Origin: Teredinibacter purpureus
GTDB taxonomy: Bacteria; Pseudomonadota; Gammaproteobacteria; Pseudomonadales; Cellvibrionaceae
Direction: 5' to 3'
NCBI RefSeq assembly: GCF_014217335.1
Contig: NZ_CP060093.1
Coordinates: 185,468 to 249,467 of the forward strand
DNA: 64,000 bases
Made by a program: the position numbers and the translations under genes
Shown here: piece after piece, positions 26,957 through 56,104 of the stretch
Layout: each line of letters opens with the position of its first letter
Numbering within the stretch: position 1 is the stretch's first letter
The notes under the pieces: model-generated
What the model was told of the DNA's origin: nothing
What the model saw: only the letters and a program-made list of their open reading frames with translations
Database searches by the model: none

Positions 26957-27052
26957 AATAATTCTCCACTAGCTATGATTTTGTTTTGTTAATAATTACG
27001 GCACTAAGTCCGCTTTAATATAAATATCATCGTGTATGAATGACATGTAGCT

Positions 27053-27080
27053 AAAGTACCCTTTCCATGCCGGTCATCAA
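27053..27080 (-). promoter_or_regulatory. Promoter of nrdA, shared accessory type
   Basis: Read leftward: TTGATG, 16 bases, TACTTT. Same form as at twenty or so accessory genes. Confidence 0.65.
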
Positions 27081-27196
27081 GTCATCTAGAAAGGTAAATA
27101 CTTACCCCACTCAATGAAGGCTTGTCTCTTCATAAGCGTTCTATTCAGGTTAAGGAGTGATGGATTTTTATGCGACATGACAGCAGCCCTCCAAGC

Positions 27197-27221
27197 AAAA
27201 GAACTGGGTTAATCCCAGTTC
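27197..27221 (-). terminator. Terminator overlapping the nrdB stop codon
   Basis: Read leftward: GAACTGGG-attaa-CCCAGTTC-TTTTGC. The loop contains the TAA stop of nrdB, so the hairpin can form only after translation ends. Confidence 0.85.
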
Positions 27222-28393
27222 AGTGCTCCACCTGCTTGATATTCAACAACACGAGTTTCAAAGAAGTTTTTCTCTTTACGAAGATCCATGATCTCGCTCA
27301 TCCATGGGAATGGGTTGTTAGCGCCTTTAAATTGTTCTGGCAGTCCAAGCTGTGCCAATCGACGATTTGCAATGTAATGTAAATACTCTTCCATCATTGC
27401 CGCATTCATACCTAATACACCGCGAGGCATAGTGTCTTTCGCATACTGTATTTCGATCTCAGTACCTTCAAGAACCATCTGAATGACTTCCTGTTGAAAC
27501 TCTTCAGTCCATAGCTTCGGGTTTTCCATTTTGATTTGATTGATCACGTCAATACCAAAATTAAGATGCATTGATTCGTCGCGTAAGATGTATTGAAACT
27601 GTTCAGCAACACCTGTCATCTTGTTGCGTCGTCCCATAGACAATATTTGGGTGAATCCGCAGTAGAAGAAAATACCCTCAGTAACGGCATAGAATGCCAC
27701 TAGGTTACGAAGTAGCTCTTGGTCTGTCTCAATAGTACCGCTCGTGAATGTGGGGTCAGATATACCGCGTGTCTGCGTTATAGACCAAGCAGCTTTCTTG
27801 GCTACGGAAGGAACCTCACGATACATATTGAAAACCTTGCCTTCATCCATGCCTAGGGATTCAACACAGTATTGGTATGCGTGAGTGTGGATAGCTTCCT
27901 CAAATGCTTGTCGTAATAAGTACTGACGGCATTCGGGGTTTGTAATTAAGCGGTATATAGCCAGGACAAGGTTGTTGGCCACTAGAGAATCAGCTGAAGA
28001 GAAGTACCCAAGAGAACGTTCAATGATTAAACGCTCATCATCAGTCAAACCATTAGGATCCTTCCACATAGCAATGTCTTTCGACATATTAACTTCTTGG
28101 GGCATCCAGTGATTTGCACATCCATCTAAGTACTTCTGCCATGCCCAGTCATATTTGAAAGGAACAAGCTGATTTAGGTCAGCTCGGCAGTTGATCATCT
28201 TCTTATCGTCTACCTGGACACGGGCTGCACCCATTTCAAGCTCTTCCAAGCCAGGAGCGATATCTAGGTTCTCAACGCTCTTTTTAGCTTGCTCGACCAC
28301 ATCTATTTGTGGGGATGCTTCTATCGAAGGTTGGGTTTCTTGAGTATTTACAGACCCTGTAGACTCATCGTCAAAATCATTCCAATTTAACAT
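27209..28393 (-). CDS. nrdB: Class Ia ribonucleotide reductase, small (beta) subunit
   Basis: 394 residues. Di-iron ligands and radical tyrosine are visible: the segment [17 protein letters not shown], then [12 protein letters not shown] (Glu-x-x-His and the radical Tyr four residues after the His, as in E. coli E115-H118-Y122), then [12 protein letters not shown] (Glu-x-x-His). The tail [10 protein letters not shown] is the peptide that docks on NrdA. The first 70 residues are acidic and variable. The ATG follows GGAGAAAATAGCC. Separately promoted from nrdA. Confidence 0.96.
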
Positions 28394-28435
28394 GGCTATT
28401 TTCTCCGCAGTTCATATTGATATTTGCCTATGAAC

Positions 28436-28463
28436 AACGTACCTAAATAAGAAGTGCCAGCAA
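28436..28463 (-). promoter_or_regulatory. Promoter of nrdB, shared accessory type
   Basis: Read leftward: TTGCTG, 16 bases, TACGTT, then a 40-base leader with a GGAG site. Confidence 0.7.
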
Positions 28464-28489
28464 TTCACATGGAAAGGTCGCCAGATTAA

Positions 28490-28612
28490 CCCCACCTCTC
28501 TCCACTTAATGTTTTTTTTATCCGTGTAGCGATAGCGAAACGGGCGCTGAAGTCTGGGAAACTGTGAAAGCAGCTGAACGCCACCCCCGCCAGTTATTTG
28601 AATTAACACAGG
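28490..28612 (-). repeat. Intergenic repeat module (copy A plus adjoining partial copy)
   Basis: Read leftward: a TTAATTCA...GGCGGGGGTGGCG piece, then GTTTCGCTATCGCTACACGGATAA, then ACATTAAGTGG and a G-rich tract. The same order recurs at 30.95, 32.93, 40.13, 43.52 and 47.81 kb with drift. Probably a 3' end/terminator and spacer module between transcription units. (Motifs shortened: GTTTCGCTATCGC, CACGGATAA.). Confidence 0.65.
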
Positions 28613-28625
28613 TAGCGTTGCTCAA

Positions 28626-29075
28626 TCACGCCGTTAAACGTGATTCGTAATTGGAGATATCATCTTCAGTCAACCATTCAGGACGCTTGTCCTTTGGAAA
28701 AGCATCGAGCCGATTTTTCATTTCTGCAATATGATTATGAACATCTAGGTAATGAAGCACCTTATCGTTGCGATTACCAAAGCCAAAATAATATTCTAAA
28801 TCACACCGCAATCGATCAAGGAACATATAATCAAAAGTAAAATCTTGAGTTGACGGTAATTCTTCTACAATTGAAGTCTTATTTGTTGGCTGATACTCGT
28901 CTCTAATGGGGGAGTCTGGCTCGCCACTACCAGCGCTGATCGTGTGCAAATATGTACCGTCACAATTTACGCAACAAACCTTAGTGCCACTCTTCAACTT
29001 GTAAACAGGCCGAGACCAATCGTCTACGTAAAGAAATGTCGCAGTTTCACCATTATTTAAAATTAAATTATCCAC
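28626..29075 (-). CDS. LPD11-domain protein
   Basis: 149 residues from the GTG at 29075, which follows AGGGGAAGG by 7 bases. The frame is open further upstream, but that part covers the promoter at 29125-29152 and a repeat module, so it is not coding. The C-terminal block LDRLRCDLEYYFGFGNRND, then AEMKNRLDAFP, then RPEWLTEDDISNYE fits the large polyvalent protein-associated domain 11, found in phage and plasmid proteins. Two CxxC-like cysteines lie earlier (CCVNC). Function unknown. Confidence 0.75.
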   Translation of the reverse strand: MDNLILNNGETATFLYVDDWSRPVYKLKSGTKVCCVNCDGTYLHTISAGSGEPDSPIRDEYQPTNKTSIVEELPSTQDFTFDYMFLDRLRCDLEYYFGFGNRNDKVLHYLDVHNHIAEMKNRLDAFPKDKRPEWLTEDDISNYESRLTA

Positions 29076-29124
29076 AAATTTACCTTCCCCTAGTGTATTA
29101 ACCTGATAGTCATTAAGTGTTGCC

Positions 29125-29152
29125 AACGTATCGCACCAATAAGGAAACGCAA
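29125..29152 (-). promoter_or_regulatory. Promoter of the LPD11 gene, shared type
   Basis: Read leftward: TTGCGT, exactly 16 bases, TACGTT. This placement is what decides the downstream GTG start. Confidence 0.7.
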
Positions 29153-29231
29153 CTGACGAAGAAATCCATTTACGATGCGGGTCTGAGATACAGTGAAGGC
29201 CGCTAAGCCCCACCCCCACTGGCTATCTGAA

Positions 29232-29489
29232 TTAACTCGAGTACAGTTTCTGAACTTCTCCCTTTGACATCAGCACCGGTGACCAAACACCGTTAATCGC
29301 CGTCTTATTAAGCTCATCACACCTGCACTGCGCACTCCTCTCAGAACAGTAAGCTTCGGGGATTGAATAGCGGTCAAGCTTATAATCAACGGAGTGACCC
29401 GTAACCTTATTGGTACCCACGATTTTAAAAGAAGGGGTTTCACCTGAAAGCTTACGCTCGAGGAACTCTGCATGCTTAGCGTCTCTCAT
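29232..29489 (-). CDS. Hypothetical protein, second gene of a pair
   Basis: About 85 residues from the ATG at 29489, after GATGGGGTG; longer in-frame starts overlap the upstream gene. It begins MRDAKHAEFLERKLSG and has a CRCDELNKTA segment near the middle. No family recognised. It follows the 133-residue gene by 13 bases, so the two are one operon. Confidence 0.7.
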   Translation of the reverse strand: MRDAKHAEFLERKLSGETPSFKIVGTNKVTGHSVDYKLDRYSIPEAYCSERSAQCRCDELNKTAINGVWSPVLMSKGEVQKLYSS

Positions 29490-29502
29490 AAACACCCCAT
29501 CG

Positions 29503-29904
29503 CTAAAGTGTAGGAATCGGTGGTGTAAGGCTTTGAATCTCCTCTGGTGATATCCCATCAATGAGATCCGCTAAGGTAACCCAATCGTAATCGGTCTTGC
29601 GCTCATCGTCGTAGACGGCTTCAAGGAATGTAGTACGCTTAGCCGTGTCTATTAGTGCAAGCAGAAAACCTTTGTTTACCAGCACCATCTCCTCTTCTGC
29701 ATTCGTTACAATCCTATAGCTATCCGCCCCCATATCTTCTTTATTGATATGGCCTTGCTCGCCAGCGCCATGCAGATAGATATCAACTGCTCTATTTTTA
29801 ATATCGCTAGGGCTTTCTCCCCCATCAAGATTGACCATCGTAGACACACTTGCGTGGATGCGAACTGGCACTACACGATCACTACTATTACTCTCATTGC
29901 TCAT
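29503..29904 (-). CDS. Hypothetical acidic protein
   Basis: 133 residues, acidic, no membrane or signal segments. It contains VPVRIHASVSTMVNL at 12-26 and ends in a Pro-rich PPIPTL. A shared-type -10 (TACGTT, read leftward from 29956) lies 46 bases upstream. Unrecognised; first gene of a pair. Confidence 0.7.
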   Translation of the reverse strand: MSNESNSSDRVVPVRIHASVSTMVNLDGGESPSDIKNRAVDIYLHGAGEQGHINKEDMGADSYRIVTNAEEEMVLVNKGFLLALIDTAKRTTFLEAVYDDERKTDYDWVTLADLIDGISPEEIQSLTPPIPTL

Positions 29905-29950
29905 CTTTACTTACCTTGTGTGTGATTTGAATAGATTGCTATTACGATTT

Positions 29951-29979
29951 AACGTATCAGAAAGGGGTAGCGAGGGCAG
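29951..29979 (-). promoter_or_regulatory. Promoter of the 29.9-29.2 kb pair, shared type
   Basis: Read leftward: CTGCCC, 17 bases, TACGTT. The spacer contains GCTACCCCT, also seen before the genes at 36.3 and 51.2 kb. Confidence 0.55.
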
Positions 29980-30020
29980 GCCCACTAGAAATGGCTTTAC
30001 CCTCGAAAGTTGAGAGCAAA

Positions 30021-30860
30021 CTAATGCATTAAAATACCAGCTGGCTTGCATTCACTTAGGTTGGCTGCGATAACCGGAATAATAGGCTGGGGATTGGCAC
30101 CCTTACTTTCATTGACCTTTGCCTTACCTGCATTCAGATCAATCTTGATCACTCGTTTTTCAAATGAATGACACCAAACAGCTAGGCTGTCGCCATCGTT
30201 ACAGTGACCGCCAGCCTTAGATACACGCCACCCTGAAGAATCCTCAGTCAGTTCTTTCAAAAACGCTTCACCGCTACACTCTCCCTTACCGAATTCACTA
30301 GCCGCGTCATAGGCGTAGTCGTCGGTTAAGCGAAGCTCTGTCCCGCAATAGCTGTATTGCTTAGCAGCCAATAAGCGTCGTACGTGCGATAACGTCCATT
30401 TCTTGGGTATTTCCTTTAAAGGTTTTAGGTGGGCGAGCGCTAGCGGAGAAAACGTCTCAACTCCCTTGCTTTCCCTTTGGCTAATGGTGATGCTGCGCGC
30501 TTGGTCTACATGTTTTTCACCGCGAACTTCGTAGTCAATCTCAAGAGCGCCGCACCAATCAATAAATGCGGGAATGTCGTAATCAACGTCTGCCAATAAA
30601 CCATCAAGTGTTTGTATGGCTTCTTGACCTCGTGCCTCAAGCCAGAAACCCTTACATGTTTTTCCGGTCTTAAATGCGTTCGTAACATCTGACACATATA
30701 GGGACGCACAACCTTCATTACCGTATAGGTTATAGGTGTAATCAAGGCACACATCACGATCATCACAGCGCATGTAGGCCTCTCCCTTGGTAATGCGATC
30801 GCGCGTAAAAGCATGGAAGTCCAAATCATTGGTGATGGGGGTGCGTGTGTGATAAGCCAT
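30021..30860 (-). CDS. Accessory protein, paralogue of the gene at 32.0-32.8 kb
   Basis: 279 residues. The second half matches the 263-residue protein at 32020-32811: ESKGVETFSPLALAHLKPLK, EIPKKWTLSHVRRLLA, TDDYAYDAASEFGKG, SSGWRV and CHSFEKRVIKIDL. First halves differ more but share a YRGKTCKGF/YKRGKTCTSY-like element. No known fold recognised. Both genes end with PAGILM plus one residue. Own promoter of the shared type. Confidence 0.8.
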   Translation of the reverse strand: MAYHTRTPITNDLDFHAFTRDRITKGEAYMRCDDRDVCLDYTYNLYGNEGCASLYVSDVTNAFKTGKTCKGFWLEARGQEAIQTLDGLLADVDYDIPAFIDWCGALEIDYEVRGEKHVDQARSITISQRESKGVETFSPLALAHLKPLKEIPKKWTLSHVRRLLAAKQYSYCGTELRLTDDYAYDAASEFGKGECSGEAFLKELTEDSSGWRVSKAGGHCNDGDSLAVWCHSFEKRVIKIDLNAGKAKVNESKGANPQPIIPVIAANLSECKPAGILMH

Positions 30861-30896
30861 ATCGAATATCCTAAGGTTGATAACTTTGATAGGTTC

Positions 30897-30924
30897 AAAG
30901 TACCAATACAGGGCTTACTGGCAA
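30897..30924 (-). promoter_or_regulatory. Promoter of the 30.9 kb paralogue, shared type
   Basis: Read leftward: TTGCCA, 16 bases, TACTTT. Confidence 0.65.
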
Positions 30925-30943
30925 TCTACATGGAATCCCGCCG

Positions 30944-30996
30944 GCACCTATCCACTTCATGATCTTGTTATCCGTGAAGCGATAGCGAAACGAGCA
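30944..30996 (-). repeat. Intergenic repeat module (copy B)
   Basis: Read leftward: GTTTCGCTATCGCTTCACGG, then ATAACAAGATCATGAAGTGG and GGTGCCGGCGGG. Near-match to copy A. Confidence 0.7.
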
Positions 30997-31011
30997 AAAA
31001 TGTTTGAGGAG

Positions 31012-31036
31012 AGACGGCAGTACATTCACTGCCGTA
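31012..31036 (-). terminator. Hairpin after the 31.0 kb gene
   Basis: ACGGCAGT-acattc-ACTGCCGT, just beyond the stop of the Cys-rich gene. It lacks a strong T-tract. Confidence 0.55.
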
Positions 31037-31041
31037 TGTGA

Positions 31042-31386
31042 CTAAATGCGGGAATCGAGCAATCTTTGCTCGCACTCAATTTGAAGCCTATGACTTCGGC
31101 AAACATTATGATCTGCGCCTAGCGTAGGTAGGGATTCAGCCAAACGATCTTTGCAATACTGTATAGAATCTTCTAGTTCTCTATTCGTCTTGTGGTCGTA
31201 GAGCGTATCGAGCACGACAACCCTGCTCTCTCCCGCCTCGAACCATGCGCAATCGGTTCTGTTATAGATCTGCCAAATACCCCCAGGATTGCTCGTGTGG
31301 CTTGGCTGGGTGCACGTGGGCAATTGAGAATAGTCCCTCCAATTCGAGGGCGCATGTCTGCATCCATGGCAATCATTACTCTGCAT
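31042..31386 (-). CDS. Cys-rich hypothetical protein
   Basis: 114 residues from the ATG at 31386, 6 bases after GGAG. Starts MQSNDCHGCRHAPSNW with further cysteines (PTCTQPS, DCAW, YCKDR, VCRSH, IECEQ), suggesting metal binding. Start overlaps the end of the upstream gene, so they are coupled. Not recognised. Confidence 0.7.
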   Translation of the reverse strand: MQSNDCHGCRHAPSNWRDYSQLPTCTQPSHTSNPGGIWQIYNRTDCAWFEAGESRVVVLDTLYDHKTNRELEDSIQYCKDRLAESLPTLGADHNVCRSHRLQIECEQRLLDSRI

Positions 31387-31858
31387 CGTCATCTCCTATC
31401 TCAATATTGATAGAACTAATCCCCTCACTTGCAGATAGTGGGCGAAGGGATGCCAGTACTTCAACCGGTAGAACGTCCAGCGAACCGTTAAAGTGAGCTT
31501 GGTCTAGGTGGACGGCAATACTCACACAAGCACCGTTAGCCAAACAACTCATTGTTGCGTTTGCATTGTGTCCGTCTGGGTGTTCATTGGTGGCCATAGT
31601 AATCGGCGCCGTGAATTTAGGCTTCTTGGCCTCATAGGTAATTATAAAATCTTCGTAAACGTGGCGCTGCTGGGTTCTTTCAACGCTTACCACTTTGAGA
31701 GCAATCCCGTTAAGGGTCAGCAATTGCTCTACTGCGACGGAAAGAGCGCATTTATCCCTATCGTAGGGATACCATAGGTCTGCCCCTTGAAGCTTACCCT
31801 CAGTGAACTGAATGGCCTTACGTTTTTGGTCGTGGACTAGGGTTACGGTCTCTTGCAT
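31376..31858 (-). CDS. Hypothetical protein
   Basis: 160 residues from the ATG at 31858, which follows GGAGAACACC; an upstream in-frame ATG lies in the promoter. Begins MQETVTLVHDQKRKA. Mixed alpha/beta composition, no membrane segment, acidic C-terminus (IEIGDDDAE). Unrecognised. First of a two-gene operon. Confidence 0.7.
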   Translation of the reverse strand: MQETVTLVHDQKRKAIQFTEGKLQGADLWYPYDRDKCALSVAVEQLLTLNGIALKVVSVERTQQRHVYEDFIITYEAKKPKFTAPITMATNEHPDGHNANATMSCLANGACVSIAVHLDQAHFNGSLDVLPVEVLASLRPLSASEGISSINIEIGDDDAE

Positions 31859-31892
31859 GGTGTTCTCCGCATAATAATTATCGTGTATTGCT

Positions 31893-31920
31893 AAAGTAAC
31901 CAACAATAAGAAGTGTGCAC
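31893..31920 (-). promoter_or_regulatory. Promoter of the 31.9 kb pair, shared type
   Basis: Read leftward: GTGCAC, 16 bases, TACTTT. Confidence 0.5.
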
Positions 31921-31982
31921 GTTTGAAGGAAAGCAAAACACAACATATAGTGGTGAGGTGTCAGAAAACGCGGGGTTATATC

Positions 31983-32016
31983 AAGCCCAAACACTATATG
32001 TAGTGCTAGGCTTTGG
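31983..32016 (-). terminator. Hairpin terminator after the 32.0 kb gene
   Basis: Read leftward: AGCC-tag-CACTA-cata-TAGTG-ttt-GGGCTT, a two-step stem a few bases after the stop at 32020. Confidence 0.55.
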
Positions 32017-32019
32017 TCG

Positions 32020-32811
32020 TTAGGCCATTAAAATACCAGCAACTTTGACTCGGTCAACATTCGCGGGCAATTCGGTTTTGAACGGTATAACGTTACCTTT
32101 CTCTTCTTTGACCTCAGAAACCTCTCCCTTGCCTTCTAAGCGGATAGTGCAACTTTTATAGTCAAATGAGTGGCAGTTAATTCCCAAATAACCCCCGTCT
32201 TTCTCGCCCTTGTTAAACCACCAGCCACTGGGACGCTCTACAAGCTTTTCGATCATATCAAGTTTGTCGTAGCTACCTTTACCGAACTCATAAGCCGCAT
32301 CAAAAGCGTAGTCGTCGGTATAGCGTGACTCGGTTGCCAAGCCTTCAAATTGGTCATTCGCAAGCAATCTTATAACGTGTGAAACTGACCATTTTTTAGG
32401 GATTTCCTTAAGTGGTTTGAGGCGATCAAGATGCGCCGGTGAATACGTAGACACACCCTTACTTTCAGATTTGTATACAGGGAAACCCATCAGGCTTTGA
32501 GCCTCATTATTACCTTCTTTAAAAGGGAGCTTCGCACAAGCATCAAAAATAGCTCTGCAAGAAAGCTGAAACGCCTCCAGAACTTCCCAGCGCGCCTCGT
32601 ACTCTTCGCCATAGATGACGTAGCTAGTACAGGTTTTCCCGCGCTTATAGACGTTGGTGGTATCTAGAATGCGAATGGTACCGGAGCTTGCGCTACCTAA
32701 AGAAATCGCAAGATTTTCGTCTTTGATGTAAAAATACGAACACGAATGAGTGTTCATTAAAGCGCGCCAATCTTCGCGTGTTTTTGGTAGTTCGATTATC
32801 GAGTTTTTCAT
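32020..32811 (-). CDS. Accessory protein, paralogue of the gene at 30.0-30.9 kb
   Basis: 263 residues, clearly related to the 279-residue protein. Shared blocks: ESKGVSTYSPAHLDRLKPLK, EIPKKWSVSHVIRLLA, TDDYAFDAAYEFGKG, SGWWF and CHSFDYKSCTIRL. Function unknown. A shared-type -10 (TACTTT) lies at 32849-32854, 38 bases upstream, with a weaker -35 (TTCGCG, 17 bases). Confidence 0.8.
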   Translation of the reverse strand: MKNSIIELPKTREDWRALMNTHSCSYFYIKDENLAISLGSASSGTIRILDTTNVYKRGKTCTSYVIYGEEYEARWEVLEAFQLSCRAIFDACAKLPFKEGNNEAQSLMGFPVYKSESKGVSTYSPAHLDRLKPLKEIPKKWSVSHVIRLLANDQFEGLATESRYTDDYAFDAAYEFGKGSYDKLDMIEKLVERPSGWWFNKGEKDGGYLGINCHSFDYKSCTIRLEGKGEVSEVKEEKGNVIPFKTELPANVDRVKVAGILMA

Positions 32812-32914
32812 GCCTCATCCGCCCTGTGTGATGTATTACTTTAAATACAAAGTACCTAATCAGACGAAAGACGCGAACGTGCTAGAAATGTCATGTGGGG
32901 GTGGAAGAATAAGC

Positions 32915-32975
32915 GGACGCCACCCCCAATCACCACTTAATGATCTTTTTCCCTTGTAAAACGCTAGCGTAACCG
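32915..32975 (-). repeat. Intergenic repeat module (copy C)
   Basis: Read leftward: GGTTACGCTAGCG, then AAGATCATTAAGTGGTGATT and GGGGGTGGCGTCCGC. The G-rich part can pair with CCACCCCCA a little further on. Confidence 0.65.
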
Positions 32976-33235: not shown

Positions 33236-33271
33236 CGGCAACCTTCACGATCACCGCTAATACAGCTTAAA

Positions 33272-33889: not shown

Positions 33890-34486
33890 CTCTATCTCCT
33901 AAGTATCTACGTTTAAGTTGAAGCCAACGTAGCCTTAGAAGTAGTCATGCGCGAATCTAGTAGAAACATTTTTGTTTCGATGCAAGTTGAATCGGAATAA
34001 AAAAGTTTTTCAGCTGGAGGGTGTTGCGCTATTAATCCTTAATATAGCGCGAAAACGGTTAAGCGGCCACTACAATAGCCGCAAATTTAGTTTCATACAT
34101 CTCAGACTTGCTGCCATAACACACCACAGTCAGCCCAGAAGCCGCCAGAGCCTTCTCAAAGTAATCATTAGCACTATTTACCCTTTTGAATTTATGAGCG
34201 TGAAAAGTGCCTTTGTAGCGGATTGCGCCGGTACCGGTGGCATAGGTGGCAATTTCTAGTTCGTTGGCCTTTATTTTTTCGGTATCCGCTTTCTGTGATT
34301 GACGTTAATCATTAAATGCGGTTTTGACGCTCCAGTGTCAGGCTATCTAGTAAATGCCCTACCAGAATATTGCAGCATCGAACACTCTAGAGTCTTCACG
34401 GTCTTCTGACGTTTTTGGTAGTATTCTCTTGACGTATCCCTGCACCACTGCAATAGTTGCATATTTGCAACCTTATGAGGCAACCT
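33890..34486. other. Mostly non-coding stretch flanking the rightward ATPase
   Basis: Apart from the frameshifted gene at 34059-34312 I see no gene. Before the ATPase start lies a GTTGCA-tatt-TGCAAC dyad (about 34456-34471), a likely operator, with a TTGACG at about 34430 upstream of it. Confidence 0.5.
34059..34312 (-). pseudogene. Small gene with an apparent frameshift
   Basis: An ATG at 34312 gives only 13 codons (MINVNHRKRIPKK). The -1 frame from there is open to a TAA at 34059 and looks coding: KANELEIATYATGTGAIRYK, then GTFHAHKFKRV, then YFEKALAASGLTVVCYGSKS. The shift falls in a six-A run. A broken gene, a sequencing error, or recoding at the A-run are all possible. No family recognised. 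Confidence 0.45.
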
Positions 34487-36286: not shown

Positions 36287-36314
36287 AACGTATCAAATAG
36301 GGGTAGCAGTGCAA
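36287..36314 (-). promoter_or_regulatory. Promoter of the 36.3-35.8 kb pair, shared type
   Basis: Read leftward: TTGCAC, 16 bases including GCTACCCCT, TACGTT. Confidence 0.7.
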
Positions 36315-36368
36315 ATTAGCGGGATATGGGGGTGGCACCCCCAACACCTATAGTTAAGACCGCTACCG

Positions 36369-38905: not shown

Positions 38906-38933
38906 AACGTACTCAATCATTAAACCCTGTCAA
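38906..38933 (-). promoter_or_regulatory. Best example of the shared promoter: TTGACA-16-TACGTT
   Basis: Read leftward: perfect -35 TTGACA, 16 bases, TACGTT. Drives the 38.87-38.25 kb pair. Confidence 0.8.
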
Positions 38934-38963
38934 ATTGGGAGGACGCGCCTCCCAACATGGCTA

Positions 38964-40034: not shown

Positions 40035-40127
40035 GCTGGTTGTCTCCTAGTGGTTTGATCATATAATCACTAGACACAACGTACTGTACATATGAACAGT
40101 CTGCACGAATCGGGGAAACGCCCCAAT

Positions 40128-43399: not shown

Positions 43400-43504
43400 A
43401 TAACCGTCTCCTGAAAGTTTTTGCAGCCACCATGACTGCTTGGTAGGAATAACGTAACGCGTTATTGGGAGGTGTGCAGTTTTAGAAGAAATCTGGCGAC
43501 ACGC

Positions 43505-46246: not shown

Positions 46247-46248
46247 GT

Positions 46249-46838: not shown

Positions 46839-46866
46839 AACGTAGCAATAAGGTGGGGTTATGCAA
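46839..46866 (-). promoter_or_regulatory. Promoter of the 46.8-45.3 kb operon, shared type
   Basis: Read leftward: TTGCAT, 16 bases, TACGTT. Confidence 0.7.
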
Positions 46867-46940
46867 ATACGAGGGAAAAGAGGTTTATAAGGGGAACGAC
46901 CTAAGCTATAGGTCGTAATGTTAATATTGAGGAAGGGGTA

Positions 46941-47670: not shown

Positions 47671-47698
47671 AACGTAGCATCAAGGTGTGGCTAGACAA
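47671..47698 (-). promoter_or_regulatory. Promoter of the 47.6-46.9 kb unit, shared type
   Basis: Read leftward: TTGTCT, 16 bases, TACGTT. Confidence 0.65.
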
Positions 47699-47794
47699 AT
47701 TAGAGAGAAACCAGATAGATATGAGGGGTGAACGACCTAATTTATTGGGCGTTATTCTTTTATGATGTTTTTAAGGAAGTAAGAGCCGTGACGC

Positions 47795-48471: not shown

Positions 48472-48501
48472 AACGTAACTTAAGTTACATGGGGGTGCCA
48501 A
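48472..48501 (-). promoter_or_regulatory. Promoter of the 48.4-47.9 kb pair, shared type
   Basis: Read leftward: TTGGCA, 18 bases, TACGTT. Confidence 0.55.
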
Positions 48502-48512
48502 TACGCTGGAAT

Positions 48513-49054: not shown

Positions 49055-49180
49055 CGTTGGTTTCCTCGGTGAGATCTAAGTGTCTCCAACATAACCGGTT
49101 ATAAATTTAGAGCAATCAACGTAGAAATCTAAACACCGGACTCGCCAAGAACCTCAGAAATCTTCGCTCAGTATCATCTT

Positions 49181-49507: not shown

Positions 49508-49619
49508 AATCTCTTCCTGTATGTAGATTTATTCTTTAAAGACAACCTACCGGAAGAGCAAAATTACCCAATTCCGCAAGAAACCACGTACAAATGGAAA
49601 TCTGTACTTTTTGCAACAA

Positions 49620-49790: not shown

Positions 49791-49806
49791 TATCTACATA
49801 GGAGAG

Positions 49807-50223: not shown

Positions 50224-50268
50224 AACGTAACCTGTTTCTATGTTGCCAACCCATAAATGCGTAATTTA

Positions 50269-50304
50269 TGGATAATTCCGTCGTGGCCATGACGGAATTA
50301 TCCA
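50269..50304. terminator. Hairpin between convergent genes
   Basis: TGGATAATTCCGTC pairs with GACGGAATTATCCA over 14 bases (loop GTGGCCAT). It sits between the stops of the rightward membrane gene and the leftward 50.3 kb gene, so a two-way terminator is likely. Confidence 0.75.
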
Positions 50305-50314
50305 TGGCCATACT

Positions 50315-50767
50315 TTATTCTTCCTCACTAATCCCTTTAAGTATACTTATCCGAAACTCAAGACTGTGCACCTGTGTTTTAGCGTAATTTAAGCGAAGCT
50401 CATTATCCAGTAGCGCGGTCATGCGACCAAGCGTTTCAGCACACGCAATACTATTCAAATACAGGTCATAGAAATAATCACCATCAAAAACCAACCTTAA
50501 GGGTCCCCCATCGTGAGAATATGTGTAGAGCTGAGAACTCGCCGCACGTATAACCTGAGATGAATCACACACGTTCACCCGGCGATGCTCGCCCTCCTCA
50601 ACATCACCAGAAAAATAGACTATATTGTCCACATATCCAAGTACCATAGATAGACCACCCGTAGACAATATCAGATCCGTATTTAGCGCCTTACTCACCA
50701 TGTCGTTGGCAAACAGATCCGCCTGTTTTTCCTCTTTTACAGTGTCCAGATTGATGATCTTAGCCAT
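50315..50767 (-). CDS. Hypothetical protein
   Basis: 150 residues, MAKIINLDTVKEEKQADLFA, then a beta-rich LRLVFDGDYFYDLYL region near 88 and a helical C-terminus. Last of a three-gene operon starting at 51180. Unrecognised. Confidence 0.7.
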   Translation of the reverse strand: MAKIINLDTVKEEKQADLFANDMVSKALNTDLILSTGGLSMVLGYVDNIVYFSGDVEEGEHRRVNVCDSSQVIRAASSQLYTYSHDGGPLRLVFDGDYFYDLYLNSIACAETLGRMTALLDNELRLNYAKTQVHSLEFRISILKGISEEE

Positions 50768-50776
50768 CGAAAGCCC

Positions 50777-51001
50777 CTATGAATTAAATTCGTACCAATA
50801 GTTGTACTCTTCAAGCGTTATCGCTTTTGCATAACGTAAAGCATCGAGCATGCCGGCCATGTAGTGGCGGGCAGCCATATTCTGTTCTGAAGACGCCCAT
50901 GCCTCGCTTAGTAATGCCGTGGGGGTGGGGCTATTCGCCAAAGAGTGTTTTAAGTCTTCCATATGAGTGGCCTGGTCTAACCCTGTATTATTGGCGCTCA
51001 A
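50777..51001 (-). CDS. Small hypothetical protein, probable TTG start
   Basis: 74 residues if the TTG at 51001 is used, which overlaps the upstream TGA (TTGA) and follows AGGATGGTGG; an ATG 13 codons later is the alternative. EQNMAARHYMAGMLDALRYA, ITLEEYNYWYEF. No family. Confidence 0.6.
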   Translation of the reverse strand: MSANNTGLDQATHMEDLKHSLANSPTPTALLSEAWASSEQNMAARHYMAGMLDALRYAKAITLEEYNYWYEFNS

Positions 51002-51180
51002 GGCGCCACCATCCTGTAATAATTAATCAAGTGCGTATCCCGACTACGTTCAAGCGCTTGGATTTTTCGTTTAGCGTCGATTTTATCTTTTAATGTTGGA
51101 AGCTTCCTTACCGCGACTCGAGCACTTCTTATTTGGCATTCGATGTTATTTAGCGCTTTCTTGTGATCATTTGCAGTCAT
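50998..51180 (-). CDS. Small basic protein
   Basis: 60 residues from the ATG at 51180 (after AGAGGGTTTGGAT). MTANDHKKALNNIECQIRSA, rich in Lys and Arg (KLPTLKDKIDAKRKIQALER), helical. First gene of the 51.2-50.3 kb operon. May bind nucleic acid, but this is only composition. Confidence 0.65.
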   Translation of the reverse strand: MTANDHKKALNNIECQIRSARVAVRKLPTLKDKIDAKRKIQALERSRDTHLINYYRMVAP

Positions 51181-51229
51181 ATCCAAACCCTCTACTCGTT
51201 AAGTCTTACTGAACATCCCCAGCAATTAC

Positions 51230-51258
51230 AACGTATTACAGGGGTAGAGGGTCAGCAA
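51230..51258 (-). promoter_or_regulatory. Promoter of the 51.2-50.3 kb operon, shared type
   Basis: Read leftward: TTGCTG, 17 bases (with CTACCCCT), TACGTT. Confidence 0.7.
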
Positions 51259-51296
51259 CTCAGCTGGAAAGCTGAGTGATCCATTACAACTATGGC

Positions 51297-51965
51297 TCAG
51301 CCGAATTTTAAATGTCGGGATTGGCCGCGAAGCTTTTCAAGTACAGTATGCTCCCCCACTATATTGGCTTGTAGGTCATCTACTTCAGCAGAGCAGACTG
51401 AAAAGGATTCGTTGTAAGCCTTAGAGTTGGCTCGGGCCCGTGAACGCTTCTTTGTGTGTATTTTTTTAATTACCGCTAACTGGCCAGGAGTGTAAGGCGT
51501 AACCAAATAGACGTTGTGAGACATCGATTGTTCGAAGCCGATCTTTGTGAGAGATTTTAATACAGCGTGATCCTCGGTTGCGATAATGAAGGCCTTAATT
51601 CTTGCCTCTATATCCGCATCTATGGCCGCGGCGAGCTCCGCGTTGGTATGCCCTCCATTTTGACTTCTTTCAGTCTCAAGGCGCTCTACACGTTGGTTCT
51701 CGCACTGCTTGGCTCGATCTCTAGCTTTGGCTTCACGCTTTAAACGCTTTACGCCATCTATAAGACCTTCATCTCCGGTCTTTTTAAGACAGTCGATACC
51801 TACAATAGACACCTTACCCTCACTACTCTGAATGAAGTGCCGGTTCTTAATGGTGGTACCGCAATGCTCACACCAGAAAATCTGCCCTTTCTCCAAGGCG
51901 TGCTGTTTTGGATGGACAACAACATATGGAGGGTGCCCTAATCCAGACTGTTGAAACGTATGCAT
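51297..51965 (-). CDS. Zinc-finger accessory protein
   Basis: 222 residues from the ATG at 51965 (after GGGGATAGTT); the longer frame runs through the promoter -10 at 51997-52002. CEHCG near 32 and a later C (GIDCLKK) suggest a metal site. A charged coiled segment (KRLKREAKARDRAKQCENQR) follows. A pattern common in plasmid and phage proteins of unknown role. Confidence 0.7.
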   Translation of the reverse strand: MHTFQQSGLGHPPYVVVHPKQHALEKGQIFWCEHCGTTIKNRHFIQSSEGKVSIVGIDCLKKTGDEGLIDGVKRLKREAKARDRAKQCENQRVERLETERSQNGGHTNAELAAAIDADIEARIKAFIIATEDHAVLKSLTKIGFEQSMSHNVYLVTPYTPGQLAVIKKIHTKKRSRARANSKAYNESFSVCSAEVDDLQANIVGEHTVLEKLRGQSRHLKFG

Positions 51966-52142
51966 AACTATCCCCGTTTTCGTTAAAGTTGGGATTAACG
52001 TAACGCAAGTGATGACAGCCATCCAATTTGCTGGAATGGACCTACATTTGTTTAATAAAAGCCTCCGCTCGGTCAAACTTTTAGATACAAAGGGCAATCA
52101 GATAGAGCCATATGACAATTAGCATTAACCGGCCTTTGATAT

Positions 52143-52355
52143 TTATGACACATCCCTTTCAATAACACGACTAGCAGGCGATTTTTTCACATCACAAAAC
52201 TCTAAGCTCCACTTATCAGCCTCATGCTCGCCAGAATGATCTGAATATCGCCCACAATCCAAACAAACAATCGCCTCATACCCTAATGACCCATCATATT
52301 CTTTGGCCCTACTAGGCGATGTATTACCGCATGCGCAGCTAAACTTTACGATCAT
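52143..52355 (-). CDS. Zinc-ribbon small protein
   Basis: 70 residues with CACG...CLDCG spaced as a zinc ribbon (about 7-35). MIVKFSCACGNTSPSRAKEY. Its start lies within the end of the PspC-domain gene (16-base overlap). Unknown function. Confidence 0.65.
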   Translation of the reverse strand: MIVKFSCACGNTSPSRAKEYDGSLGYEAIVCLDCGRYSDHSGEHEADKWSLEFCDVKKSPASRVIERDVS

Positions 52356-52704
52356 TATACTTATCCAACGATTCAGATAAATTTAGCCCGTTTACACTCT
52401 CCCTAGGCAACACAATAAACCCCAAACTTTCTAAGTGCTCTATGGATTTTTGAGTCTTATCTTTTTTCGGTATTCGTTTAAGAGGCAATAGGATCGCCAT
52501 CGCCACATAAACAAAAATACCGATACCAAAAGTCATAACGCTAGCAATAAAGATCAGACGATAAATCCATGATGGAATAGTGCAATTCACAGCTAATCCA
52601 CCGCAGACACCAAATATCATTTCATCCTCACCGCTACGATGAAGGTCTCTAATAAATAAGACCAATGACAACGCTAAGCCTTTAAAAGACAGAATATTAT
52701 TCAT
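52339..52704 (-). CDS. PspC-domain membrane protein
   Basis: 121 residues. From about 29: MIFGVCGGLAVNCTIP, then IYRLIFIASVMTF, then GIFVYVAMAILLPLK. This fits the PspC domain (GVcGGla...RllFv...yl...llP), a transmembrane sensor part of the phage-shock response. The cytoplasmic tail is short. Likely answers envelope stress from the transfer apparatus, but it is a stand-alone copy. Confidence 0.75.
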   Translation of the reverse strand: MNNILSFKGLALSLVLFIRDLHRSGEDEMIFGVCGGLAVNCTIPSWIYRLIFIASVMTFGIGIFVYVAMAILLPLKRIPKKDKTQKSIEHLESLGFIVLPRESVNGLNLSESLDKYNDRKV

Positions 52705-52741
52705 GTGTTTTTCACTCCCAATAACAGTGTTATTTTAACGA

Positions 52742-52972
52742 TTACCACCAGGCAATTGCCACGGTACGTCGACGTGATGAATTAACTTGTGGAGCCAATG
52801 CAAGAGCACCAAGACCCATTAAGGCCATTGGGATGCTAGCGAAAGTAAACAGCGCCACGACTACTCCTACACCTACTGCTGCTATAGATAACAGTCTTAA
52901 GGTTTGCCATACCATCAACAACGCAAGGAATAATTTGCTTTTACCGGCTAAATTAATTTGTGAATTTTTCAT
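52742..52972 (-). CDS. Small two-span membrane protein
   Basis: 76 residues. Hydrophobic segments at about 13-32 and 36-60; basic end (SSRRRTVAIAWW). ATG after GGAGGTGTCTC, a strong site. First gene of the run with the PspC protein (38-base gap). Confidence 0.65.
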   Translation of the reverse strand: MKNSQINLAGKSKLFLALLMVWQTLRLLSIAAVGVGVVVALFTFASIPMALMGLGALALAPQVNSSRRRTVAIAWW

Positions 52973-53183
52973 GAGACACCTCCTCTAGTTCGTCTACATC
53001 TTTAATGTACACCTTCTAGAAATGAGGTAAATTCAGGCAGAAAAATACCTAGGCTCAGAATCCCATTTTTCACCCACTTTATGCCCTGCGCCCCCGGCGC
53101 TTTGTGACGGCTCTAGCAATAGCGTAGAGCCCGCGCAATTAGAACTGTCCTATATTCGCCCTCCTCTACTAAGAATTATTGGC

Positions 53184-53951
53184 TTAGTCATTCAAAAGAT
53201 TTATCATTTTATAGAGACAATTTTGACAAGTGACCGTATGGCGATCATCAAATCCCTCCAGCCCCCAAAATTTGTTCGCCGGCTTGCATAAAGCATCCCG
53301 CGCATCACGTTTTAAGCGGCCTTTAGTTAGCTGTGAATGTAGTTGAAAATGGCTCTTTCCAGGGCTGAAGAAACCGTCTGAAGCACCCTCTTTTGGACTG
53401 TAAGCATAAGCAACCTTTCCATCTATACCCTGCTTTCTCATCTGGTCGAATACGTATTCCGAGATTAGGTCTATTGAGGTATTAATGACACTGACGGACG
53501 CGTAAGCGTCATCACTTAGCCTTTTTCTTTCTTCGTATTGAGCGCGCCAGTGCGCTTTATAAATACGATGATGCTTGTCTCGCTGTTTATATAAGTCTTC
53601 AAGGTGGCTTTTAACTATTTGCTTTGAAGACAGGCCTTCTAGCAAACGTTTAACCGGGTCTAGGTAACATAGCTGGGCCTCGTTTTTGATTTTCGCTTCA
53701 TGGGCCCTTTTTTCTACCGTTCGCTTTTCAGATTCCGCTTGCTTGTACTGGATGTACTCTAGCGTTTCACAATGAAACCAACGAGAACACCAGACCTTCA
53801 CCGTGCTTCCGACAGGCAAATCCGGCTCGTCATTGAGGAGCGTCAACGTTGTAGTCTTGCTGTGATCGAGTAATTCTCGGGGAGATAAAGCCGTAACTTG
53901 ATAAAGTATAAGTGTGATGCAAAGCGGGCACCCCATAGCGAATTCAGACAT
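53184..53951 (-). CDS. Zinc-binding hypothetical protein
   Basis: 255 residues; the ATG at 53936 (five codons in) may be the true start, because a TACTTT -10 at 53953-53958 touches the first ATG. MGCPLC at the start and TCQNCLYKM at the end could form a metal site. The middle is a long charged coiled region (ERKRLSDDAYASV). Very short leader and no ribosome site. Confidence 0.65.
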   Translation of the reverse strand: MSEFAMGCPLCITLILYQVTALSPRELLDHSKTTTLTLLNDEPDLPVGSTVKVWCSRWFHCETLEYIQYKQAESEKRTVEKRAHEAKIKNEAQLCYLDPVKRLLEGLSSKQIVKSHLEDLYKQRDKHHRIYKAHWRAQYEERKRLSDDAYASVSVINTSIDLISEYVFDQMRKQGIDGKVAYAYSPKEGASDGFFSPGKSHFQLHSQLTKGRLKRDARDALCKPANKFWGLEGFDDRHTVTCQNCLYKMINLLND

Positions 53952-53952
53952 T

Positions 53953-53980
53953 AAAGTAACGCTCTCATTACTTTGTGAAA
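53953..53980 (-). promoter_or_regulatory. Promoter at 53.96 kb, shared type, almost on the start codon
   Basis: Read leftward: TTTCAC, 16 bases, TACTTT, then ATG two bases later. Implies a near-leaderless message. Confidence 0.5.
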
Positions 53981-54634
53981 ACTTGCTAGAAAGCTCCGGA
54001 TCTAACTCGCAAAATACCTTTTCAGCTAAGCATAATCGCGTGAAACATCGCAGATAAATCCGCGGTTATCGTGTTATGGATAGGAAGGTAAGCCAGGGGA
54101 ATACCCTATAGTTATGTGCCGTTGGCCCTTTTAAATTATTTATATTTCAATGTAGTAAGCGAGGCGGGTGTGCCACTTAAATTCTAGGGGTGCTTCGTTA
54201 TAAGTAAGCTGTTAGTGTAAAGTTACTTGTTGTCGCCAGCCTAGTCCATCCTTCGCTGGCGCTATTGTTTCTTAGTTCGCTGTAGATAGTATTGGTTAGG
54301 CTGCCTACGGTCGTAGGTCAAACTGTCGAAGCTACGCTAATTTTAGCGTTTCTGTCGATGGTTTAGGTATGGGGTGGTTCGGTGTTCACTTACATAACAA
54401 TACGCTAAAACACCGTTTCGGCCTACACTACACGCCCTATGCAACGCTCGTTTTGTGCGTTTGATTCGCAAATTGTCACACAAAACCAGCAACACATTGT
54501 GCGCCGTTTAGCTCAGCGATAGGTTTACTTATCATTTATATAAAATGAAAATCCCAGCTGCTTAGCGACCTTAACAAATTCAATGGGTGCGTGCCTTTTA
54601 ATTTCTTCGCCTCGGCAATTAATCCTGTTTACCT
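53981..54634. other. Hairpin-rich non-coding stretch
   Basis: About 650 bases with no supported gene. Hairpins: CGCCAGC/GCTGGCG (54234-54261), CCTAC-ggtc-GTAGG (54304-54317) and ACGCTAA-tt-TTAGCGT (54334-54349). GGTTATC-GTGTTAT near 54070 is echoed by GGTTATCATGTTAT near 54995. Could be an RNA gene, an origin of transfer or a recombination site. Confidence 0.5.
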
Positions 54635-54862
54635 TTATCTAAGACCGCTGGTCGCAAACAGTACTACTGGAACCAAAAACCCCAACGCGACAAGAAAGAA
54701 CGGCCCCACGCTCTTTATGAAACCATTTTCCTTAAAGATCGCTAGGGCCAAGCTAAACCCCATAGAATCTTTTACATCAGCTGGATCAACTTTTTCGAAC
54801 AGAGGAAGCATAAAAATCACTCCCAATACAAGCGAAAGACAACACAATACGAATACCATCAT
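54635..54862 (-). CDS. Small two-span membrane protein
   Basis: 75 residues. Hydrophobic segments 2-22 and 50-72 with a soluble loop FEKVDPADVKDSMG. ATG follows CAGGAGATGA. A TACTTT -10 lies at 54946-54951. No family recognised. Confidence 0.65.
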   Translation of the reverse strand: MMVFVLCCLSLVLGVIFMLPLFEKVDPADVKDSMGFSLALAIFKENGFIKSVGPFFLVALGFLVPVVLFATSGLR

Positions 54863-55049
54863 TCATCTCCTGTTTTAAACACAATTTTCGTACTAGATAA
54901 TTTCTATTTATTGGAGCCAAGATTCATGCCTCCCTAGATCATTTAAAAGTAACACCGAGTCTAGATCAAGTAATTAGTGACGAAAAGTGCAAATAACCCC
55001 GTGGTTATCATGTTATCCCTATAGATAGGGCTAGATGACTAGAGGTGAT

Positions 55050-55250
55050 TCATTCAATAAGGATGGAACATTTACTGCATGATAAGCACCGACCATCATT
55101 CTCTTTCACTAGAATAGAAACAGATGATTCATTGTACCTGACTGAACATTCTTGGCATTTATAAACCGTTTCACTTAGAGGGCCCCCAGTGAAAGCATCT
55201 ACCAGCTGCTCACTAGCGCACTCCTTGAAGGTTATTTCAGTCTTGCTCAT
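55050..55250 (-). CDS. Small zinc-ribbon protein
   Basis: 66 residues with CQEC...CLSCSKC at about 32-62, plus an earlier Cys. Likely one zinc site. Weak ribosome site. Not assigned to a family. Confidence 0.55.
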   Translation of the reverse strand: MSKTEITFKECASEQLVDAFTGGPLSETVYKCQECSVRYNESSVSILVKENDGRCLSCSKCSILIE

Positions 55251-55310
55251 TTAGACGTCTCACACATACTATTTAGTTAAGTTACTGAACCTCAATCATA
55301 GATTACTGGC

Positions 55311-55334
55311 CAGAGGGGGGGGATCCCCCCCCTC
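55311..55334. repeat. Perfect 24-bp palindrome with G8/C8 arms
   Basis: AGA, eight G, AT, eight C, TCT... reads the same on both strands and is followed leftward by A/T bases. It lies 8 bases beyond the stop of the 55.3 kb gene. A terminator shape, but far more G-rich than others here. Confidence 0.85.
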
Positions 55335-55341
55335 TTTAGGC

Positions 55342-55662
55342 CTAGGACACATTCACGGCATCGCGGAACGTTTGGTTAAACATACCGTTGACCCCATGCA
55401 AGTGTTCTTCAGCATCATAACCGGATAGGTTTCCATCAATAATTTTATTCAGGATTCCAATGCCTGTTAGTTTCCAATCCAAGCACACAGGCTCTTCACA
55501 TGGGAATTCTAGCTTTTCCCATACTGACTTCATATCCGTTGCTGCATCTTGGATCGTCTTGAAGCGTTTGCGAGAACCTTTGTGAAGGAAGGAGTCGATC
55601 GTATCCACTACTTCCTTCCCAAATGCAACGGCAATCAGACTGTTATTTGTGTTGGTTTCCAT
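55342..55662 (-). CDS. Hypothetical protein
   Basis: 106 residues, METNTNNSLIAVAFGKEVVD, helical, with CEEPVCLDWKLTGIGIL near 56. TACGTT -10 at 55729-55734. A single-gene unit that ends at the G8/C8 palindrome. Unrecognised. Confidence 0.65.
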   Translation of the reverse strand: METNTNNSLIAVAFGKEVVDTIDSFLHKGSRKRFKTIQDAATDMKSVWEKLEFPCEEPVCLDWKLTGIGILNKIIDGNLSGYDAEEHLHGVNGMFNQTFRDAVNVS

Positions 55663-55777
55663 AAAATCACCTATATGCTAGAGGCCACCCCCAACGGATA
55701 ACCTTTCTCTTGCTAGTGATTTCAACATAACGTATAAGAGGAGTATGGCAATTGAGGTGGAAATGATGATTCGTTTT

Positions 55778-56104
55778 TTAGATGCTGTCGCCCATAGTTC
55801 GCACCTGGATCATGGCTGCGATGTTCAAAACATCAATCATATCTCCTTTTTCAACATGCTCCTTTAATAGATGCCTGAGGGAATCGATTGAGCATTGTTC
55901 TTTATCCCACCAACCACCCCGCCCTTTGTCCCTAGCCTTGGACAGCTTTTCTTTCATCATCGTGCTGGCCAAATTCACCATAAACTCATCGGCTTCGATA
56001 TTGGCCGCAAGATTTCCATGATCCTCGCCTACGCGTTTGAACGAAACAAGGGCCATAGCGGATTGTTGTTTACAGCTATCAAGAAAGTTTAATTTTACGT
56101 TCAT
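55778..56104 (-). CDS. Hypothetical protein
   Basis: 108 residues from the ATG at 56104 (after GGAGTAGTT). MNVKLNFLDSCKQQSAMALV; central KLSKARDKGRGGWWDKEQCS. Helical, charged. No family. Confidence 0.65.
   Translation of the reverse strand: MNVKLNFLDSCKQQSAMALVSFKRVGEDHGNLAANIEADEFMVNLASTMMKEKLSKARDKGRGGWWDKEQCSIDSLRHLLKEHVEKGDMIDVLNIAAMIQVRTMGDSI

Follow-up and report, generated by a model that had tools for sequence, protein, structure and literature searches.

Conjugative plasmids of the pLS20 family keep clustered, separate operons, anti-restriction genes among them, each behind the same regulatory sequence. According to the available part of PMC8708921, EGeRS1 is such a sequence of 400-600 bp with many inverted repeats, and EGeRS2 is a strong promoter under the Reg repressor. 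In F and ColIb-P9, several leading-region copies of Frpo/ssi stand before ssb and similar genes; by folding into a stem-loop, Frpo restores canonical -10 and -35 boxes (available parts of PMC11541004 and PMC9849209). Here we describe a promoter motif that recurs on C2, a plasmid of Teredinibacter purpureus. The window, i.e. the whole stretch analysed, is the 64,000 nucleotides at the end of C2 (bases 185,468-249,467, contig NZ_CP060093.1). A preliminary description of the window had proposed that one promoter form with two boxes, a TTG hexamer and a -10 of TACGTT or TACTTT, drives many separate units between 27 and 56 kb under one regulator, or under one condition such as entry into a new host.

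The C2 array resembles the pLS20-family establishment regulons in having many operons behind one shared regulatory sequence on a plasmid. Unlike EGeRS1 and EGeRS2, as far as these are described in the text available, the C2 element appears to be a compact promoter of 50 bp in three parts, and its logo shows no palindrome. The plasmids also differ from the pLS20 family in being Gram-negative, with MPF_I-like transfer genes, and in a regulon that also covers recA, an AddAB-like pair and nrdAB. The C2 sites are like Frpo/ssi in that there are several, before ssb and similar genes; they are unlike Frpo, as depicted in those parts of the sources, in having neither a consistent stem-loop nor a canonical -10. 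We met no account of this promoter in the open-access literature searched, as far as its text was available.

In the middle promoters of phage T4 (MotA/AsiA) a TTTGC box near -35 takes the place of the usual -35 and depends on a factor, and the -10 stays TATAAT. The C2 sites likewise have a TTGC-type box near -35, but their -10 is of the form nACRTT and there is a further element upstream. AcaCD and SetCD of IncA/C plasmids and SXT/R391 are cases of one element-encoded activator acting at many promoters. Those promoters serve transfer genes, whereas here the transfer block holds few or no sites. We lean, by a little, towards reading the C2 sites as double-stranded-DNA promoters of a plasmid-wide regulon, which host RNA polymerase would use together with a factor of the plasmid family, probably at entry into the recipient.

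Motif architecture and distribution on C2

The genome has two contigs, C2 (249,467 bp) and the chromosome C1 (4,643,613 bp). C2 is a plasmid; the window encodes a TraG/TraD-like coupling protein, a T2SSE-type ATPase, ParM and ParA, and a TrbI-domain protein is encoded on C2 outside the window. Coordinates on the whole plasmid are marked C2, to keep them apart from window coordinates. Sequence analysis identifies a motif that is concentrated on the plasmid, stands at a fixed distance before genes, precedes the same genes in related plasmids and shares one orientation there.

On the minus strand of the window from 26 to 64 kb, TACGTT is the top over-represented 6-mer (by z-score), with 26 copies against 7.3 expected, and the plus strand has 4. 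All 23 places listed in the preliminary description have TAC(G/T)TT near the given gene start on the minus strand. The logo of these sites shows the TTG and the -10, together with a third part that had been missed, a conserved element upstream of TTG. Two single bases stand out as well, a G two bases ahead of the -10 and an A twelve bases past the first -10 base. Outside the promoter, over -40 to +29 relative to the -10, the logo is flat.

A two-block model with free spacing between the blocks was seeded from these sites and refined iteratively. The refined C2 consensus is TTTC(C/T)A(C/T)C..A.TTGC, 16-17 bp, GnTACGTT, 5 bp, YA. The upstream block is in short TTTC(C/T)-N7-TTGC. Its TTTC, at -46 to -43 from the inferred start, is as strongly conserved as TTG. 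The spacing between the blocks is 16 bp in 36 of 47 sites, as the preliminary description had it for most sites, 17 in ten and 18 in one. The distance from TTTC to TTGC is fixed while the gap to the -10 varies (16 or 17), and therefore both act as one block.

On C2, 47 sites score above 16 and 43 above 20. They lie at 212-249 kb and 0-33 kb of C2, with singles at 43, 52, 60, 63-64, 92, 143 and 164 kb. The array thus does occupy the window from 27 to 56 kb, as first described, but it crosses the contig ends and runs on through the first 33 kb of C2. Eighteen of the 23 listed sites are recovered at the identical -10 (Table 1). Two are shifted to a TATGTT, from 49123 to 49093 (30 bases) and from 55734 to 55729 (5 bases), and one, at 29956, is weak (score 14.2). 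Two fall out of the refined model, 38151 and 36724, of which the latter had scored 19.4 in an earlier one-block model. Within the same range there are two additional sites, 49549 and 53009. The sites before nrdA and nrdB are among the recovered ones.

Positions 3-5 of the -10 had been called nearly invariant, which does not hold for the refined sites. Of the 47, 33 have C at position 3; at position 4, 26 have G and 13 have T; only position 5 is constant (T in 47/47). The apparent invariance arose because the list was selected on TAC(G/T)TT.

Controls and held-out tests

Two controls were used, 400 kb of the chromosome sampled as 20 stretches of 20 kb, and the mirror, i.e. the reversed sequence. 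The two-block model finds no site above 16 and one above 15 in the chromosome sample. On mirrored C2 one site exceeds 16, compared with 47 on real C2. Full refinement gives 47 sites on real C2 (median 27.6, 36 above 24) and 38 on mirrored C2 (median 18.4, 3 above 24). Twelve refinement runs from random seeds gave one site in total and are uninformative as a control. The exact pattern TTTCN8TTGN{17,18}GNTANNTT has 20 matches on C2 and a single one on the 4.64-Mb chromosome; its backwards control has four genome-wide.

For a held-out test, a matrix was made from the 23 sites of the preliminary description only, without refinement, and the 185 kb of C2 outside the window were scanned. There are 13 matches above 16 against 2 in the mirror, and 18 against 5 above 14; the 400 kb of chromosome contain two matches. 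Below about 12 the matrix does not separate C2 from its mirror (31 vs 27 above 11, 57 vs 65 above 9). Of the 47 C2 sites, 31 are followed, after a leader of at most 60 nt, by an ATG open reading frame (ORF) of at least 50 amino acids with a Shine-Dalgarno sequence, compared with 5.2% of random positions.

Table 1. Putative promoter sites, putative regulon genes and landmark gene in the window (window coordinates; scores are from the two-block model).
Feature	-10 position and sequence	Interval	Strand	Score or match	Remark
Site upstream of nrdA	27058 TACTTT	27053..27092	-	29.4	
Site upstream of nrdB	28441 TACGTT	28436..28475	-	31.7	
Site before LPD11-domain gene	29130	29125..29164	-	26.6	
Site	30902 TACTTT	30897..30936	-	27.0	
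Site	31898 TACTTT	31893..31932	-	31.7	
Site	32854 TACTTT	32849..32888	-	27.8	
Site	33931	33926..33966	-	29.3	spacing 17
Site	36292	36287..36326	-	31.1	
Site	38911	38906..38945	-	20.8	TTGACA-16-TACGTT
Site	40083	40078..40118	-	17.2	spacing 17
Site	43456	43451..43491	-	27.3	spacing 17
Site	46844	46839..46878	-	31.8	
Site	47676	47671..47710	-	33.5	
Site	48477	48472..48512	-	28.3	spacing 17
Site	49093 TATGTT	49088..49127	-	26.6	first placed at 49123
Site	49549 TAGGTT	49544..49583	-	29.1	not in the preliminary list
Site	51235	51230..51270	-	29.4	spacing 17
Site	52002	51997..52037	-	28.6	spacing 17
Weaker site	53009 TACATT	53004..53043	-	16.0	not in the preliminary list
Site	53958 TACTTT	53953..53992	-	25.4	
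Site	54951 TACTTT	54946..54985	-	22.1	
Site	55729 TATGTT	55724..55763	-	30.6	first placed at 55734
Site	61291 TACATT	61286..61325	-	26.1	beyond the range first described
nrdA-like, ribonucleotide reductase large subunit		24176..26956	-	Pfam Ribonuc_red_lgC 5.2e-189	regulon gene
nrdB-like, ribonucleotide reductase small subunit		27209..28393	-	Pfam Ribonuc_red_sm 4e-93	regulon gene
Tyrosine-recombinase-like gene		18757..19791	+	alignment	landmark between transfer block and array, not a regulon member

The motif in related plasmids

Five plasmids were chosen by a related coupling protein and scanned: pTE101a (Alteromonas macleodii), plas12 (Salinimonas), pASTE61-200 (A. stellipolaris; pASTE61 below), pGLAAG01 (Glaciecola) and pMAQU01 (Marinobacter). 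pSMR5 and a Stutzerimonas plasmid were searched with the exact pattern only and gave no match. Above 16, the C2-trained model finds 12 sites in pTE101a against 0 in its mirror, 8 against 2 in plas12, 1 against 0 in pASTE61 and 0 against 2 in pMAQU01.

After refinement each motif-bearing relative shows a variant of its own. The upstream block is TTCCC.C.AA.TTGC in pTE101a and similar in plas12, CC.TTWWTTTGC in pGLAAG01, and GGCG(C/T)TTTTTTTGC in pASTE61, where the seeds were sequences before annotated genes. C2 and these four relatives have the common core TTGC-16-GnnACRTT-5-YA (170 sites), and so the upstream element differs from plasmid to plasmid while the core stays.

The distance to genes was tested for 94 of the 127 refined sites in the relatives, those in stretches with annotation listed. 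For 78 of the 94, an annotated coding sequence starts 15-120 bp downstream on the same strand (chance 5-7%), and 69 of the 78 stand 32-47 bp before that start. By plasmid the counts are 22/25, 19/28, 12/15 (pASTE61) and 25/26; the pASTE61 value is partly circular because nine of its 15 sites are the seeds picked upstream of genes. A held-out test for this plasmid, with the nine seeds and a scan of 50-252 kb, gave 15 matches above 14 against one in the mirror. Among these are sites preceding the AddA- and AddB-like genes, as well as sites preceding genes that correspond, by orthology or by position, to the PRTRC and methyltransferase genes of pTE101a.

The AddA-like and the AddB-like genes each carry a site in all four plasmids where they were found (C2, plas12, pASTE61 and pGLAAG01). 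In pTE101a no AddA was found, and a shorter AddB relative (222582) has a site at 222544. A PRTRC gene also has an internal site, some 330 bp ahead of PRTRC protein B, in pTE101a (13747) and plas12 (325938) and, by position, in pASTE61 (236679). RdgC, a second UvrD helicase, HipA, HipB and the recombinase have a site in none of the five plasmids.

A blind prediction was made for a locus of Alteromonadaceae bacterium XY-R5 (L140), found through its recombinase-like gene alone. It has three sites above 20 (mirror maximum 16.8), on the predicted side and strand. Four loci or genomes with more distant recombinases (L141, G223, G306 and G318, the last over 9.5 kb) have none above 12.

One promoter form serving one regulon, as first proposed, is strongly supported by its concentration on the plasmid, the fixed gene distance and its retention before orthologs in distant plasmids. 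That a single regulator reads all sites is likely.

Putative regulon genes

Outside the window, C2 sites precede ssb, recA, the AddAB-like pair and a methylase. The held-out matches above 16 precede, among others, the AddA-like gene (C2 52141, minus), the AddB-like gene (C2 60443, minus) and recA (C2 63955, plus); the ssb site (C2 699, minus) scores 15.6 with that matrix. Domain matches among the C2 genes are SSB, RecA, C5 methylase, a weak YgjP, and a UvrD helicase with a weak PD-(D/E)XK match. The AddA and AddB labels are ours, and are taken from domain content, the RefSeq names of the plas12 orthologs and gene pairing.

This gene list bears on what the regulon responds to. A plasmid-borne, SOS-like answer to DNA damage, instead of entry, would call on many of the same genes, since recA, ssb, the AddAB-like pair, the SprT/YgjP-like gene and nrdAB would all suit a damage regulon. 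A Ref recombination nuclease (RefSeq name) is moreover the second gene behind a pTE101a site and lies 245 bp behind a plas12 site. Many members are, however, small unknown genes, methylases and partition genes, and five plasmids as well as the XY-R5 locus have the array on the same side of the transfer block and in the same direction. We regard a damage response as improbable.

Position relative to the transfer block

C2 and several Alteromonadaceae plasmids have collinear transfer blocks; among the latter, pTE101a and pGLAAG01 are typed as MPF_I. At the edge of the block, in the six plasmids compared, lies the recombinase-like gene of Table 1. Its product has 344 amino acids, its invariant residues resemble the tyrosine-recombinase signature, and it has a weak PDB match to an Int protein (E 0.018). 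It is a candidate resolvase or unusual relaxase. No relatives of the gene were found in viral contigs.

In C2, pTE101a, plas12, pASTE61 and pGLAAG01 the array lies on one and the same side of this gene and faces it. About 2-7 kb separate the gene from the nearest array site, and 18 kb in pGLAAG01. In C2, 33 of 39 array sites are directed toward the transfer block, a direction compatible with the transferred strand as template. If the origin of transfer (oriT) lies at the recombinase edge of the transfer block, the arrangement would be a leading-region layout. The side and direction of the array and its member genes suggest expression on entry into a new host.

A leading-region-like position and orientation, with ssb and methylase genes as in known leading regions (PMC11541004, in the part available), would also suit promoters of the Frpo/ssi type, active on single-stranded DNA through hairpin folding. 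When the 47 C2 sites were folded (-180 to +20), no consistent hairpin appeared. Inverted copies upstream or downstream are not in excess (mean z -0.27 to 0.37 for 47, 25 and 25 sites in three plasmids), and tests exceeding z 3 number 0 of 97 upstream and 4 of 97 downstream. Such single-strand promoters are extremely unlikely here, and the argument below returns to promoters on double-stranded DNA.

Mechanism

Promoter function, start site, helper factor and timing are predictions from the motif and its setting. The three parts would act in register. A plasmid-specific element would occupy about -46 to -36 and TTGC about -34, followed by the non-standard -10 (nACRTT) with its G at -14. Transcription would start at the A twelve bases after the first -10 base (about 7 bases after ACRTT). 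This pyrimidine-preceded A lies where a multisubunit RNA polymerase would start from this -10, and the motif is therefore most naturally read as a polymerase promoter. Host RNA polymerase would read the sites only with a helper that is encoded by the plasmid family and touches the upstream element. The regulon's genes, all to one side of the transfer block, would act in replication, repair, recombination and protection, and the regulon would likely serve rapid expression when the plasmid reaches a recipient and must become and stay double-stranded. A plasmid factor that aids host polymerase is the simplest account, given the concentration of the element on the plasmid and an upstream block that varies while the core and key genes stay.

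The motif departs from sigma-70 in both boxes. TTG and a spacing of 16-18 bp are present, and TAnnnT fits 46 of 47 sites in C2 but 29 of 123 in the relatives (75/170 together), while TATAAT is found at none of the 170. The first -10 base is T in 47/47 on C2, and in just 30/123 in the relatives (7/29, 6/28, 9/32 and 8/34 by plasmid). For sigma-54, GG-N10-GC was looked for: there is no conserved GG in C2, pTE101a and plas12, and pASTE61 shows GG-N9-GC only, so a sigma-54 promoter was rejected.

Ordinary sigma-70 promoters could still give such an array if a plasmid repressor silenced them in the donor and entry released them (zygotic induction), with the upstream element as operator. On C2 the TTG, the 16-17 bp, TAnnnT and the G at -14 fit sigma-70, and repressor release is known from plasmid p576 (PMC8708921, in the part available). 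In the related pMAQU01, palindromic TACGC-ATACGCGTA-like sequences stand before several genes at 211-234 kb, by eye, possibly a repressor-based arrangement in that plasmid. The upstream element, however, is not palindromic in the logos, and no palindrome was found within the site logo of C2, a search that did not extend to operators further out or to a ribbon-helix-helix (RHH) repressor on C2. The first -10 base is not conserved in the four relatives, and the lack of TATAAT would be odd for strong promoters under simple repression. We consider this explanation unlikely.

Both the -35 side and the -10 side deviate from sigma-70 in a plasmid-specific way, and AddA- and AddB-like genes remain in the regulon even as the upstream element varies from one plasmid to the next. 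This pattern could also come from a strongly diverged, plasmid-encoded sigma-like factor that replaces the host sigma and coevolves with the element in each plasmid. The two sigma families searched for, Sigma70_r2 and Sigma70_r4_2 but not others such as Sigma70_r4, gave no credible sigma factor on C2. Sigma70_r2 has no match on C2 at E 0.001 (10 on the chromosome). Sigma70_r4_2, with E up to 5, gave one weak C2 match (E 0.17, C2:30923-31003), which has equal-scoring look-alikes on the chromosome. All plasmids retain the TTGC core and A-11/T-7, as though a single sigma read them, and replacement of the host sigma seems to us very unlikely. A wider conjecture, which we rate as somewhat unlikely, is a private RNA polymerase specificity in a family of marine conjugative plasmids, for the core TTGC-16-nACRTT together with an upstream element peculiar to each plasmid: each lineage would have a sigma-like or sigma-redirecting factor of its own and a matching element, and would jointly switch on 30-50 establishment and repair genes in the new cell.

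For the helper that assists host polymerase in the reading we favour, gene families were collected that all five motif-bearing plasmids have and that a search at E 0.01 did not detect in pMAQU01. By our count, some seventeen non-transfer families qualify. Four were aligned and three of them searched against PDB sequences, without a useful match. Homologues of a 176-amino-acid family were modelled (mean pLDDT 76.4), and no fold match was found at E 0.001. The only qualifying family with the look of a helix-turn-helix, by eye, is a HipB-like protein (C2:77309-77803), which is a lead and not a result. With its HipA-C-domain partner it occupies C2:75876-77803, and the pair occurs in each of the five motif-bearing plasmids but was not detected in pMAQU01. 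ACGT methylation in the -10 as a sensor of entry was set aside; position 4 is A in 14/29 sites in pTE101a and 15/28 in plas12.

Several observations weigh against the favoured reading. The helper was not found, and HipB-type proteins, the one family that looks DNA-binding by eye, usually bind palindromes, while the sites are not palindromic. The C2 -10 pattern, taken alone, could be that of an ordinary weak sigma-70 promoter. Refinement from the C2 model yields 26-64 self-consistent sites per motif-bearing plasmid from reversed relatives, and 369 from reversed pMAQU01. Because refinement makes sites from reversed sequence, refined counts in the relatives overstate and are no evidence alone, and the case there therefore rests on gene-start distance and held-out tests. 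The unrefined 23-site matrix separates relatives from their mirrors only weakly above 16 (pTE101a 7 vs 3, plas12 5 vs 1, pGLAAG01 5 vs 3, pASTE61 1 vs 0). Membership is uneven: three of five plasmids have a site no more than 120 bp from the SprT-like gene, and one of three has such a site for the C5 methylase. In pMAQU01 the genes beside the same recombinase run the opposite way and lack the motif. Finally, MOB-suite types all five compared plasmids as 'non-mobilizable' and no relaxase was identified, so that conjugative transfer of C2 is inferred from its secretion genes.

RNA-seq exists for an A. macleodii strain, AltDE1, carrying pAMDE1, according to the available part of PMC4223743. pAMDE1 is probably a near relative, since the coupling-protein match was the same for the DE1 plasmid.

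Further features of C2

A second nrdA with an adjacent nrdB-like ORF lies outside the window at C2:33685-37612. This NrdA is 85% identical to the window copy, and a third, on the chromosome, 69%. TACGTT at C2:37645, before the second nrdB, was not counted as a site, as its best score for the upstream block is 0.7. At C2:26587-29647 there is a direct duplication at a distance of 2,244 bp, and either copy contains three promoter sites along with two small genes.

Within the array, 30021-30860 and 32020-32811 of the window encode paralogous proteins, 41% identical, with distant relatives on Bacillus plasmids. A small helix-turn-helix gene (57482-57733, XRE-like by eye) lies in the array region; no relatives of it are listed in two or more of the compared plasmids. 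In window 26000-64000, CACCCCCA and TGGGGGTG are strongly over-represented on both strands and often form, by eye, short intergenic hairpins. A repeated stretch like CGTTTCGCTATCGCT...AGTGG is seen by eye upstream of four promoters (28560, 30990, 40150 and 43540, minus strand). Rfam gave no match within 24-64 kb of the window.

C2:165433-179664 encodes a protein of 4,743 amino acids with relatives in four other plasmids, in which only a C-terminal SNF2-type helicase was recognised. A virion-type RNA polymerase was rejected for it, as only helicase-type domains matched.

Significance

The switching of early plasmid genes is known in detail for few systems, the single-strand promoters of F and ColIb and the repressor release of p576. 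The C2-type promoter points to a third architecture, one that can be recognised in marine bacterial plasmids from their sequence alone. The promoter marks the members of the regulon singly, and dozens of unknown proteins can be listed as candidate anti-defence or establishment factors. It links recA, ssb, the AddAB-like genes and nucleotide supply with genes on the entry side, which would make it testable how incoming DNA becomes and stays double-stranded.

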